DNA of 64,000 nt, from the NCBI RefSeq assembly GCF_900108305.1, contig NZ_FNUX01000001.1, positions 186,001 to 250,000 on the forward strand, read 5' to 3'. The notes under the pieces are model-generated. The model ran no database searches. It was not told the DNA's origin and saw only the letters and a list, made by a program, of their open reading frames with translations. This document shows, piece after piece, positions 47,623 to 55,805 of the stretch. Origin of the DNA: Nitrosomonas ureae (GTDB taxonomy: Bacteria; Pseudomonadota; Gammaproteobacteria; Burkholderiales; Nitrosomonadaceae). Position 1 is the first letter of the stretch; each line of letters begins with the position of its first letter. Position numbers and translations under genes: made by a program.

Positions 47623-48804
47623 ATGTTAAACCTATCTGTTGCAACGCAAATCAGCTCTTCAACTGAAAATAATATTGCAGTAACGAGCAATTCGAATCCA
47701 TCAGGAAAGAATGAATCCGACGGTGAAGAGTTTGGAAAAGTCTTGCAGCGTGAAGTCTCCGAAGCAGCAAACAAGCATGAGAAAAACGATACGCCCACTA
47801 CCAATGAACGCTCCGACAGTCCAATATCCCTGGAAGAAAGTAATAATAACGATACCATCTTAACCGTACCTGAACCGGTAACTGCGGGTGATACGGTTAG
47901 CTTTATTCATACTCTGCTGAATAATTCGACACATCCAGCCAACCTTAATCACTCACAACTTCCAGTGGATTCAATGTTCGATCACCCTGCAAAGACTGCA
48001 TCATCGAATATGCCACAAGTATCAGCCATGATATTTTCGAATTCATTGATTCCACAGGACGGTAAGCAGACTCTGAGTATTATGGTTCCAACCGCGAATC
48101 CAATGCTTCAGCAAAAACTGACACAACATAACTTAATGGCGAATGATTATTTCTCGCTGTCCAATAATATCTGGCAGTCATTGAGTGCGGAAAATTCTGC
48201 CGTTGACGGCAATTTATTGCCATTTCCTTCAGAAATGAGCTTAATCACGCCGAGTACTGTGGAAGAATCGATATTTTCTGCGCATAACGAGCCACTCACA
48301 TCACAATCATTTGCATCACAATCACTTAGCCTAAGCAGTACTGGTACGGTAAACACTGCACCGCAGGATATTCATGTTGACCTTCCAATAAATCAGCCAA
48401 AGTGGGGAGGTGAATTCGCCCAGAAAGTAGTTTGGTTGACTTCTCAGCAAAATCAAGTGGCTGAGATTCATCTGAATCCAGCGCATTTGGGCCCTGTCGA
48501 AGTGATGTTGACCATCACGCAGGATCAGGCAACCGCCCAATTTGTATCCCCGCACTTAGCGGTACGCGAAGCTATCCAGGAAGCCTTACCAAGGCTAAGA
48601 GAGATGATGGCCGATAACGGCATCCAACTGGGCAATGTCATGGTCGGTGCTGATTCATTCCAGCAAGAAAACAAACAACAGCAGAGTTATCAATCAGCAA
48701 AAAATACAACTAACATACTTGACCAGGAAGCGGAAACCGGAAAACATGTTGAGACAGTCACCATACCTGGGAGGCATCTGGGCATGGTCAATACTTATGC
48801 GTAA
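47623..48804 (+). CDS. fliK: Flagellar hook-length control protein FliK
   Basis: 393 residues: a long, Ser/Asn/Thr-rich unstructured N-terminal part (about 1-255) that acts as molecular ruler and a C-terminal domain with the FliK_C signature IHLNPAHLGPVEVMLTI and REAIQEALPRLREMM. It controls the switch from hook to filament export. Confidence 0.94.
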   Translation: MLNLSVATQISSSTENNIAVTSNSNPSGKNESDGEEFGKVLQREVSEAANKHEKNDTPTTNERSDSPISLEESNNNDTILTVPEPVTAGDTVSFIHTLLNNSTHPANLNHSQLPVDSMFDHPAKTASSNMPQVSAMIFSNSLIPQDGKQTLSIMVPTANPMLQQKLTQHNLMANDYFSLSNNIWQSLSAENSAVDGNLLPFPSEMSLITPSTVEESIFSAHNEPLTSQSFASQSLSLSSTGTVNTAPQDIHVDLPINQPKWGGEFAQKVVWLTSQQNQVAEIHLNPAHLGPVEVMLTITQDQATAQFVSPHLAVREAIQEALPRLREMMADNGIQLGNVMVGADSFQQENKQQQSYQSAKNTTNILDQEAETGKHVETVTIPGRHLGMVNTYA

Positions 48805-52813: not shown

Positions 52814-53611
52814 ATGATCAACATAACTACCGCTGAATTCAATACATTACTGGCAGCATTTCTTTGGCCACTAAGCAGAATTCTGGCGCTGATCGCAAGC
52901 GCCCCTATTTTAGGAAACCCCAGCACTCCGGTCAGAGTAAAGCTGGGGCTGGCAATCATGATTACGATTCTGGTTCTGCCACTCGTCGAAAAATCCTTGC
53001 CGCAAATTGACCCCGCCTCCGGGATCGGTTTGGTAATCCTGTTGCAGCAAGTATTGATTGGCGTAGCCATCGGATTTGTCATGCGCATTGTTTTTGTCGC
53101 TGTTGAAATGGCGGGTGAGCTAATTGGCCTGCAAATGGGACTGGGTTTCGCAATATTCTTTGATCCCCAGAATTCCGGACAGATAGACATTATCGGACGT
53201 TTTCTGGGAGTAATCGCCAGTCTGGCATTTCTTGCCATGGATGGTCATCTGTTGATGATTGCCTTAATTTCACAAAGCTTCAGCACCTTACCGATAGGCT
53301 CAGCGGCACTGACAGAGGTTACATTTACCACGCTCGCAAACTGGGGGGGAGAAATTTTCAAATCCGGGTTGCAATTGTCACTTCCTGTCCTGACAGCATT
53401 ACTGATCACCAATCTTGCTCTCGGCATCCTGACCCGGGTCGCACCGCAACTCAATATCTTCGCAGTCGGTTTTCCATTAACCCTAGCCGTTGGCTTCCTT
53501 GTTTTAGGGCTCAGCATACCTTTTTATACCCCCATTCTGGAATATCTGGTGCACGATGGTTTGAAGTTGATGATGGGCATTCTTAATATCGATGATATCA
53601 ATATGCCATAG
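52814..53611 (+). CDS. fliR: Flagellar export gate protein FliR
   Basis: 265 residues with six membrane helices, including GEIIGLQMG-type GELIGLQMGLGF near 110-121 and LTRVAPQLNIFAVGFPL near 205-221. It completes the core gate. flhB and flhA are not in the window. Confidence 0.96.
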   Translation: MINITTAEFNTLLAAFLWPLSRILALIASAPILGNPSTPVRVKLGLAIMITILVLPLVEKSLPQIDPASGIGLVILLQQVLIGVAIGFVMRIVFVAVEMAGELIGLQMGLGFAIFFDPQNSGQIDIIGRFLGVIASLAFLAMDGHLLMIALISQSFSTLPIGSAALTEVTFTTLANWGGEIFKSGLQLSLPVLTALLITNLALGILTRVAPQLNIFAVGFPLTLAVGFLVLGLSIPFYTPILEYLVHDGLKLMMGILNIDDINMP

Positions 53612-53801
53612 AAGTTATCAGATATCGCCGAAACAAATCTTGATAGACATTAATTTAAATTTTTCTCGGATAAACAGGTAATATTTCCCTTCTTTTTCAA
53701 GGCAAATCTATTATCTAAAAACTGCTAAAGTAGTTATCCATTTTCTGGAAATCGCTTATTAACATGGATAATTCCAATAACTGCTGGTTTGGTTAAAATT
53801 T

Positions 53802-55718
53802 ATGACATTCAAGTCACGCTTATTCAATTCACTGCGTAAATTCTCTTCATCGACGGAACCGCATCCAGATGATACGTTGGTTTTATCCACCGAAGATTCA
53901 GAGTATTGCAATGTGTCGAGTGAAAATCAGCAGTTTGCATCAGCGGATGAAATTAAACAATTGTTGGATACCGCATTCCGCGATCGACTGAGTGTTGAAG
54001 ATCAAGCGATCAAAGAGGCGCATAGGCGAATTGAAGCAGAGAATATTGCCAGGGTAGCCGCTGAAGCAAGAGTCCGGGCAGAAGCCAATGCCCGAATTGC
54101 AGCTGAAACCCGGATCCAGGCTGAAGCAATGGCTACTGACCAGGCTCGCGCTAGAGCAAAGGTTGAAACACTGGCATTTAGAGAAGCCAATGCTCGCCGG
54201 GAGCTTGAAATAAAAACCAAACTACTTGCGGATGAGAAAGTAAAGGCTGAAAAAGCCTTGAATGCCTTATTGGAAGCTAAAATCAAAGCAGAAGCTTCGA
54301 TTGTTCAGAAAATGCAGGAACGTGTTGAACAAGAAGCAACGATGCTGGATAAGGCACACGCAGCCGCACAAAAAGAAAAAGAAGCCACAGAAGCAGCTAA
54401 ATATCGGACTCAAATGGCAAATGACGCGCATCTTGCCGCACTGACTGCAATCGAAGCGGAGACCAGAGCTGCTGCACTGGCAACAGCCAGAATCCAGGAA
54501 AAGCAAAAAATCATCGCATTGGCGGGAGCGCAGGAAGAAACTGAAAAGCAAGCGCTCGAAGAGTTGCAAATGCGCGCACGAATTGAGGCGCAAGTCCTGG
54601 CGCAAGCTTCTCGGCGCTTGGAAAAAGAGAAGCAGGCAAGAGAAATGGAAGAAGAAAGGCTGAAAGCCGAAACGATTGCCACAAATGCAGCACTGGAAAG
54701 AGCTGAGGTTGAGGCTGTCGCTGCAGAGCAGGCTCGAAAAAGAGCTGAGTCAGATATTCGAGCAACAATTGCCGCGCGCGATAAAATTGATGCGGAGAAA
54801 ATTGCGGCAGAAATGGCAGAGTCCATTCTTGCACAAGAAAATGCAGCGGCTGCAGCTATCCAGACCCGGCTGGCTCTGGAATCCAGGCTGCCTGAAGAAG
54901 CCAAGCAGCGGATGCAGATTGAATCAGAGGCATTGATTGCTGCCGAAATGGCTCTAAATGCAGAAAAAGAAGCTGCCGCAATTGCAAAAGAAAAGCAAAA
55001 ATCCGAAGTTGCTGCAACAAAAGAATATCAAAAACGCGCCAAGGCAGATGAGGAAGCCATCAAAGAAGCCAAAGCACGTGCCGAAGCTGAAAAATCCGCG
55101 CGGGATGCCGCGAAAAGAAAAACTGAAGCTGAAGTAAAATTAAAAGCAGCCATAGAAGCAAAGACCCAAATGGACATTTTTATCGCTCAAGAGACTAATA
55201 GCAAAGCTGATTTGGAACAACGCTTGCACGAAGATGCAGCAATTCGCGCCAAGACGATAGCGGATGCAAAGCAGGCAGCAGCGGAACGTCTTGAGATTGA
55301 ACAAAAAATTACAGGCCTGGCAATCACCCGAGCGCAAGCCAAAATTATGGCTGCCAATAAAGCCAGAGGACAACTTGAGGCCGAAAAGAATGCCACCAGA
55401 ATTGCATTGGAGAAAGCGAGAAAAGAATCCTCAGCTCTGGCCGCCATGCAAGAACGTATAGCCCTGGAATCAGCCGCACTGGAAGCTGCCGCAGCCAGAG
55501 AAGCTGTTGAGACAATGGCAAAGGAAGCACTGTTTGCCCGTTCTCAAGCCGATAAAGAGGCAACCGCCGCAGCTACTGTAAGAATACGGGCAGAAATTGC
55601 CGCTGCAGAACATTCCCGCAACAACATAACCTCAGAAACAAGAAATCAACTTCCGCATAATTCCAAGTTAACTCCCGCAACCGCAAGCTCTCTTTCCGGC
55701 GCATCGAAAGCGCAGTAA
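53802..55718 (+). CDS. Long alanine-rich coiled-coil protein of unknown function
   Basis: 638 residues. A polar head of ~45 residues is followed by one almost uninterrupted helical region (about 48-600) made of Ala, Glu, Lys, Arg and Gln with repeated patterns such as AEARVRAEANARIAAETR, and a short Ser/Thr-rich tail. There is no signal peptide, membrane segment, Gly/Pro break or enzyme motif. It resembles TolA-like or filament-forming proteins only in composition. It lies 190 bases downstream of fliR on the same strand and ends before a terminator. A structural or polar-scaffold role is a guess. Confidence 0.8.
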   Translation: MTFKSRLFNSLRKFSSSTEPHPDDTLVLSTEDSEYCNVSSENQQFASADEIKQLLDTAFRDRLSVEDQAIKEAHRRIEAENIARVAAEARVRAEANARIAAETRIQAEAMATDQARARAKVETLAFREANARRELEIKTKLLADEKVKAEKALNALLEAKIKAEASIVQKMQERVEQEATMLDKAHAAAQKEKEATEAAKYRTQMANDAHLAALTAIEAETRAAALATARIQEKQKIIALAGAQEETEKQALEELQMRARIEAQVLAQASRRLEKEKQAREMEEERLKAETIATNAALERAEVEAVAAEQARKRAESDIRATIAARDKIDAEKIAAEMAESILAQENAAAAAIQTRLALESRLPEEAKQRMQIESEALIAAEMALNAEKEAAAIAKEKQKSEVAATKEYQKRAKADEEAIKEAKARAEAEKSARDAAKRKTEAEVKLKAAIEAKTQMDIFIAQETNSKADLEQRLHEDAAIRAKTIADAKQAAAERLEIEQKITGLAITRAQAKIMAANKARGQLEAEKNATRIALEKARKESSALAAMQERIALESAALEAAAAREAVETMAKEALFARSQADKEATAAATVRIRAEIAAAEHSRNNITSETRNQLPHNSKLTPATASSLSGASKAQ

Positions 55719-55755: not shown

Positions 55756-55805
55756 TATGCCTCTAAGCCATTCTCAGGTCAACCTGAGAATGGCTTAGAG
55801 GCATA
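55756..55805. terminator. Bidirectional terminator, 24-bp perfect stem
   Basis: Arms 55756-55779 and 55782-55805 are perfect reverse complements with a 2-base spacer (about 4-6 bases of loop in practice). It lies between the convergent coiled-coil and porin genes, 37 and 43 bases from their stops. Confidence 0.8.

Follow-up and report, generated by a model that had tools for sequence, protein, structure and literature searches.

Sequence is a poor guide to the classification of coiled-coil proteins, since unrelated ones resemble each other. TolA and MukB of E. coli both have long helical segments. The coiled-coil-rich proteins (Ccrp) of Helicobacter pylori and cyanobacteria consist mostly of coiled coil, and some of them affect motility and cell shape, as far as the excerpts of PMC2776988 and PMC7002697 go; the excerpt of the latter adds that polymerisation cannot be predicted from coiled-coil-rich regions alone. 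Crescentin (CreS) needs a positively charged N-terminal segment, formed by its first 27 residues, for attachment to the membrane, according to the accessible parts of PMC10873595. The bactofilin BacA binds membranes via the peptide MFSKQAKS, in which F2 and K4/K7 matter, and the global consensus of the bactofilin membrane-targeting peptide is MFSKKKK, as given in the available sections of PMC12448750.

Here we analysed a window of 64,000 nucleotides, meaning the whole stretch of DNA under study from Nitrosomonas ureae, a bacterium related to known ammonia oxidisers; it encodes a long rod protein behind flagellar genes. The locus comprises the following features:

52814..53611, plus strand: fliR, upstream neighbour of the rod gene
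53671..53698, plus strand: conserved upstream element TAAACAGGTAATATTTCCCTTCTTTTTC, also found ahead of two relocated copies (L046, L047), from the alignment of upstream regions
53723..53731, plus strand: conserved extended -10-like sequence TGCTAAAGT, from the same alignment
53802..55718, plus strand: coding sequence of the 638-aa coiled-coil rod protein, from the ORF reading and the copies in relatives
55756..55805, no strand assigned: perfect 23-bp hairpin (inverted repeat) after the rod gene, without a U-tract

In the window, the frame at 53802-55718 (plus strand) starts with ATG and is open over all 638 residues. The Ala/Glu/Lys/Arg helix that the sequence-only reading had described there is reflected in the composition of the rod, with 27% Ala, 15.5% Glu, 9% Lys and 9% Arg. 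The gene begins 190 bp after the end of fliR and sits behind a flagellar run with fliM, fliN, fliO, fliP, fliQ and fliR, named by position and reading. These fli names, as well as guaA, glnD, gmk, upp and the atp genes, are our own assignments, read off translations. The protein has a single match in its own genome, and its five named relatives come from Nitrosomonas (four) and from an unclassified proteobacterium (one). Our analysis confirms that the rod gene is a real ORF conserved throughout the genus, which is Nitrosomonas according to the named relatives. As to the window at large, GC skew ranges from -0.08 to -0.24 over the first 26 kb and from -0.12 to +0.08 beyond; up to about 25.6 kb every large ORF is on the minus strand, and most later ones are on the plus strand.

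The motif TAAACAGnCAATATTTCCCTTCTTTTTC together with TGnTAAAGT is present upstream of the gene in most of 26 aligned regions, L046 and L047 included, and is less clear in L034. When the genome of the window was searched with the core of the upstream element, a mismatch-free match was obtained at the rod gene only. A search of the window and its own genome for a regulon found none: it yielded 18 other sites with two to three mismatches, and at none of the 11 that were inspected was the downstream arrangement like that of the rod gene; the reversed pattern, used as a control, returned 7 sites. Visual inspection of the 26 aligned upstream regions revealed neither a sigma-28 nor a sigma-54 motif. 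As the upstream element is conserved and was kept before relocated copies, the rod gene probably has its own promoter. At the other end of the gene, the 142-nt stretch with the hairpin folds far better than shuffled sequences (z -10.45). The strong terminator that had been proposed at this place is thus borne out only by half: the perfect inverted repeat is there, but no U-tract stands behind it.

Most of the protein is taken up by one feature:

53970..55607, plus strand: rod, residues 57-602, 39 in-register 14-residue repeats

The repeat unit reads x-x-A-x-x-R/K-A/I/L-x-A-E/D-x-x-A-x, and all 39 copies share one register. Over the 39 units, phase 2 is occupied by Ala in 72%, phase 5 by Arg/Lys in 82%, phase 9 by Glu/Asp in 90% and phase 12 by Ala in 72%. 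In the charge spectrum of the rod, peak power is 11.9 at 2.8 residues and 8.6 at 7.0 residues (95% shuffle maximum 2.9), the spectrum of Ala plus Ile/Leu/Val/Met/Phe peaks at 4.67, 3.5 and 14 residues, and all periods above the shuffle threshold are harmonics of 14. Ile, Leu, Val, Met and Phe, which together make up about 19% of the rod, show no significant period there on their own (top value 1.20, threshold 1.27), in which the rod differs from an ordinary heptad coil. No tandem repeats of period 42 were found in the DNA of the rod gene, and thus the 14-residue repeat is not a recent expansion. Under a 14-residue profile that penalises shifts, the window protein stays in one register over 556 residues. 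A single register of at least 530 residues was obtained for 52 of 70 members (69 of the genus plus G124, which belongs to another genus of the same family), and the register is broken in the other 18. Since the Nitrosomonas family and G124 served to train the profile, independent scores come only from controls and from relatives in family f24, presumably the Gallionellaceae: 15 f24 relatives score 94-210, E. coli TolA and MukB as well as FliH and FliJ of the window score 0. The periodicity analysis of the coil thus revealed stronger order than the sequence-only reading had seen.

Conservation is distributed unevenly along the protein, and three further segments can be distinguished:

53838..53969, plus strand: variable linker, residues 13-56, of which 13-47 have no regular structure in the model
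53997..54125, plus strand: N-terminal rod cap, residues 66-108, the portion common to f24 homologs
55272..55607, plus strand: C-terminal rod segment, residues 491-602, with conservation above that of the rod middle

Among 64 aligned members, phases 2, 5, 9 and 12 of the repeat are the most conserved (mean entropy 1.01, 0.87, 0.58 and 0.71; the other ten 1.17-1.79), and their 3-4-3-4 spacing is the heptad a/d pattern. The conserved stripe accordingly runs Ala, Arg, Glu, Ala, an unusual core of polar residues and alanine, in which Arg-Glu pairing would suit antiparallel helices. Indels relative to the window protein are found in the rod (546 residues) of 8 of 63 orthologs, in the linker (44 residues) of 42, in the tail (35 residues) of 61 and in the head (12 residues) of 9. 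This count covers the window protein and 63 others; it leaves aside L002-L006, whose proteins are identical to those of L009, L012, L021, L058 and L057, the fragments in G031 and G051, and L061 and L071-L075, in which the rod has another length or the start is unresolved; for the copy of G039 (L061, L189), a search for the true start yielded nothing. The rods of three relatives (L055, L057, L058) carry 4-residue insertions. Both rod ends are better conserved than the middle. Most Nitrosomonas members have rods of close to 39 repeats, unlike L071-L074, G124 and f24.

AlphaFold2 (monomer, 33 sequences) predicts a helix at residues 3-12, a disordered linker at 13-47 and helices at 48-351 and 374-609, with a mean pLDDT of 75 and a pTM of 0.21; the ten-residue mean pLDDT exceeds 80 at about 61-290 and 440-590 and is 47-80 between. 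The gap in the model helix lies around Pro364, a position held by Leu in at least 90% of the alignment rows. Hence, the coil, which had been described as uninterrupted, is continuous in its register, whereas the AlphaFold2 helix is broken. Pairs of Lys/Arg with Asp/Glu at i+4 are enriched in the rod (49 vs 18 expected), and this, together with the missing period of the large hydrophobic residues, would also suit a single alpha-helix of the charged ER/K type, that is, a monomeric spacer rather than a coiled coil. We consider such a spacer quite unlikely, as the conserved 3-4-3-4 stripe on one face and the scarcity of indels over 546 residues fit packing against a partner helix. Searches for known families agree with the initial reading, to which no family name suggested itself: the rod protein gave nothing at E<=1 in Pfam and NCBIfam, a Pfam scan of 33 members returned 0 families at E<=0.01, phmmer 0 matches at E<=1 among PDB chains and Foldseek 0 matches of the model to the PDB at E<=10, the latter being a weak fold test at this low pTM. 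A search of a collection of open-access papers with a set of terms, covering titles and the openings of abstracts, found no work about the rod protein, and the available portions of PMC10781756 and PMC9239080 do not mention it.

Ahead of the linker, the protein carries a distinct head:

53802..53837, plus strand: N-terminal amphipathic and basic peptide, residues 1-12, MTFKSRLFNSLR, a possible membrane anchor (model helix 3-12)

All 33 alignment rows share M1, F3 and K4, at least 90% keep L7 and S10, and position 4 is Arg (F3-R4) in L027. The 11 members measured have a basic, amphipathic head peptide (hydrophobic moment 0.46-0.79). Outside the genus the heads differ: the G124 protein starts with MTKKMKL, those of f24 with MSAQKKIRLV or MSALKKNIRLV.

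To what extent the rod gene accompanies flagellar genes can be followed within Nitrosomonas. The rod gene is matched in 72 of 85 genomes of the genus, a remnant in G024 included, and fliR likewise in 72 of 85. The synteny that had been noted in the window is widespread in the genus, as the rod gene comes next after fliR on the same strand in 65 of the 71 gene-carrying genomes (remnant uncounted), 62 of them according to computed gaps of at most 628 bp and three (G031, G039, G051) according to coordinates. In G020, G047, G054, G057 and G059 it lies away from fliR as assembled, and in G010 the contig ends, so that the position relative to fliR cannot be judged. In G078, fliR is 56 bases from the contig end and the rod gene therefore cannot be seen. 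The copies of G054, G057 and G059 (L046, L047, L048) lie near a gmk-like gene, with a transposase-like ORF adjoining in L047; we take this lineage to be that of N. europaea. In G047 (L059) the rod gene adjoins ATP synthase genes, named from translations.

With fliR as flagellar proxy, the rod gene is absent from 12 of the 13 genomes without fliR, and the thirteenth, G024, holds a remnant that lacks the rod, so that in the genus intact copies are confined to genomes with fliR. FliF is also absent from 12 of the 13. The exception, G053, is among the 12 of 85 genomes without both rod gene and fliR; it is 75% complete and retains FliF, and its missing fliR is thus probably due to incompleteness. 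The remnant in G024, which has neither fliR nor FliF, is 167 aa long and consists of head, linker, about three repeats and tail, the remaining rod being gone. Judged from the tail, which reads as in relatives, the deletion is in frame; its junction was set by eye, and MAFFT places a few residues elsewhere. An rpoB tree of 60 genomes calls for five losses of fliR, and the rod gene goes missing each time if the G024 remnant is counted as a loss. The tree represents 60 of the 85 genomes (8 were without a match and 17, four of them fragments, were not fetched), includes all 13 fliR-less ones, and has G078 coded as gene-bearing and G053 as lacking both genes. Five co-losses remain when G053 and G078 are left out, and four when G050 and G064 (<97% complete) are omitted as well. 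The sign test on five co-losses gives a p of 0.0625, the lowest possible with five pairs.

A deletion spanning the rod gene and fliR could explain some of the co-losses in Nitrosomonas, and the gene might then be a mere hitch-hiker beside fliR whose function is unrelated to flagella. Such a hitch-hiker is very unlikely in our view, since the gene was retained after relocation off fliR in G054, G057, G059 and G047, and since the f24 copies track fliR although they are unlinked to it. Indeed, 89 of 158 f24 genomes carry a relative and 112 carry fliR (85 have both, 4 only the relative, 27 only fliR and 42 neither). That is, fliR is present in 85 of 89 carriers vs 27 of 69 non-carriers (Fisher p 1.6e-15, ignoring relatedness). 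The carriers without fliR are G541 (73% complete), G587 (99%), G627 (53%) and G643 (69%). Carriers were called by one query, the protein of G502, at E<=1e-10, a procedure that may overlook divergent copies and may include unrelated coils among the weak hits. In the single-contig carriers G478, G525, G624, G625 and G654 the rod gene and fliR are separated by about 88 kb to 1.5 Mb, and the association therefore does not reflect close linkage. Thus, homologs away from fliR do exist, but nearly all their f24 carriers possess fliR. The proposed flagellar association is upheld by the conserved position after fliR, the co-loss, the decayed remnant and the co-occurrence without linkage in f24.

Homology of the f24 proteins to the window protein is supported by the position of the cap: the start of the window rod (66-108) has its best fit at the beginning of the rod in all 15 f24 proteins read (score 85-109 vs at most 82 elsewhere in them), these being the best-matching of the 89 carriers. 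In L195 and L201, charge periodicity over the whole length is weak. The relatives in G525, G526 and G587 are open frames of about 2,160 to 2,200 aa. Across the order, the full-rod profile detected 13 of 399 genomes (11 Nitrosomonas, G502 of f24, and G126) and the cap profile 33 of 399 (11 Nitrosomonas, 9 f24, 13 others); the matches in the 13 others, at E 1e-12 to 1e-7, might simply reflect ordinary coiled coils. Five of these loci (L225-L229) were read. In L226, L227 and L228, from three genomes of family f8, an open frame of about 1,800 aa that has a similar cap adjoins an apparent uracil phosphoribosyltransferase gene; L229, from family f42, encodes a protein of 249 aa whose start resembles the cap.

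Closer to Nitrosomonas, G124 has a 986-aa version after fliR. In genus g3, probably Nitrosospira, 22 genomes have fliR and none has the rod gene (E<=1e-5); no rod-like frame was seen behind fliR in any of ten g3 regions examined, in two of which (L140, L143) a longer antisense frame had masked fliR in the ORF listing. The presence of fliR without the rod gene in g3 indicates that the rod protein is accessory, neither a core flagellar part nor essential, and the 22 g3 and 27 f24 genomes that have fliR alone both speak against a core flagellar protein.

Two further explanations concern what the protein does for the cell. It could be a general filament for cell shape or stiffness that is mainly useful to swimming cells, its flagellar link being indirect. 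The shape and motility roles of the Ccrp in H. pylori and cyanobacteria (excerpts of PMC2776988 and PMC7002697) would be in line with this, as would the f24 gene, which is not beside fliR and has a guaA-like neighbour in 5 of the 15 loci read (L185, L193, L194, L197, L199); the position after fliR and the co-loss with it argue against such a filament, which we rate as rather unlikely. Alternatively, the protein could be exported by the flagellar apparatus as part of an external rod, sheath or ruler, given that its gene adjoins fliO-fliP-fliQ-fliR and that residues 13-47 lack regular structure in the model. However, the slot of the hook-length ruler is probably taken by the ORF at 47623-48804, by position presumably fliK, and f24 copies unlinked to fliR fit an export substrate less well, making this the least probable reading of all.

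Taken together, the data directly support the gene, its repeat, the conservation of the rod and the linkage and co-loss with fliR. As relatives without flagella are also without the rod, the protein is probably a scaffold that helps flagellated cells and not an enzyme. We favour, with moderate confidence, a membrane-tethered coiled-coil accessory scaffold of ~81 nm that serves flagellated cells. Its membrane binding, oligomerisation, location and scaffold role are what we infer. A place at the flagellar pole and the formation of filaments, both raised by the sequence-only reading, would be conjecture. The protein would reside in the cytoplasm, with the basic amphipathic N-terminal peptide sitting on the inner membrane, and a flexible linker would connect this head to the stiff rod, whose roughly 39 x 14 residues would span ~81 nm at 0.1485 nm each. 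Rods may pair via the conserved a/d stripe, forming Ala-Ala and Arg-Glu layers, and may assemble further, perhaps through contacts at the two conserved ends of the rod. Such an assembly could organise or stiffen the envelope region of the flagella, or hold a flagellar or chemotaxis partner there. More tentatively, and with considerable doubt, the protein might typify a hitherto unnamed class of bacterial cytoskeletal struts defined by the conserved rod cap and the 14-residue coiled-coil repeat with a core of alternating Ala-Ala and Arg-Glu layers: the ~39 repeats (~81 nm) of most Nitrosomonas would form a strut or ruler, tethered to the membrane, by which the flagellated part of the cell is placed or braced, and elsewhere the repeat would be extended, in frames of up to about 2,200 residues.

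In two bacterial families, the exact repeat, the conserved rod cap and the loss pattern connect a protein without a name to genomes that have flagellar genes. This makes it a target for studying how flagella are organised in Nitrosomonas, and perhaps in iron oxidisers if our identification of f24 is right. Should the near-constant length of the rod in Nitrosomonas prove functional, the protein would be a clear example of selection on protein length in bacteria.

How does the rod protein compare with the known systems? It is unlike TolA and MukB, which score 0 under the 14-residue profile. Being a mostly helical rod with no recognised catalytic domain, it falls under the Ccrp label, which is, however, descriptive and does not denote one family; the excerpts of PMC2776988 and PMC7002697 mention neither a 14-residue unit nor a position at flagellar genes. 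With crescentin, as portrayed in the accessible parts of PMC10873595, it shares the long coiled-coil rod and a short basic N-terminal segment. Crescentin has a stutter, whereas the window rod has none over 556 residues, and the Ala/Arg/Glu core gives a composition unlike that of crescentin. No PDB chain matches by sequence, and the crescentin filament entries were presumably among the chains searched, judging from the entries cited in the accessible parts of PMC10873595. The bactofilin domain is absent from the rod protein and from 33 members (0 Pfam families), and the model is all-helical. Nevertheless, the head and the bactofilin membrane-targeting peptide, as described in the available sections of PMC12448750, are both short and N-terminal with an early Phe and basic residues, and this resemblance of the rod-protein head to a membrane anchor provides a lead.
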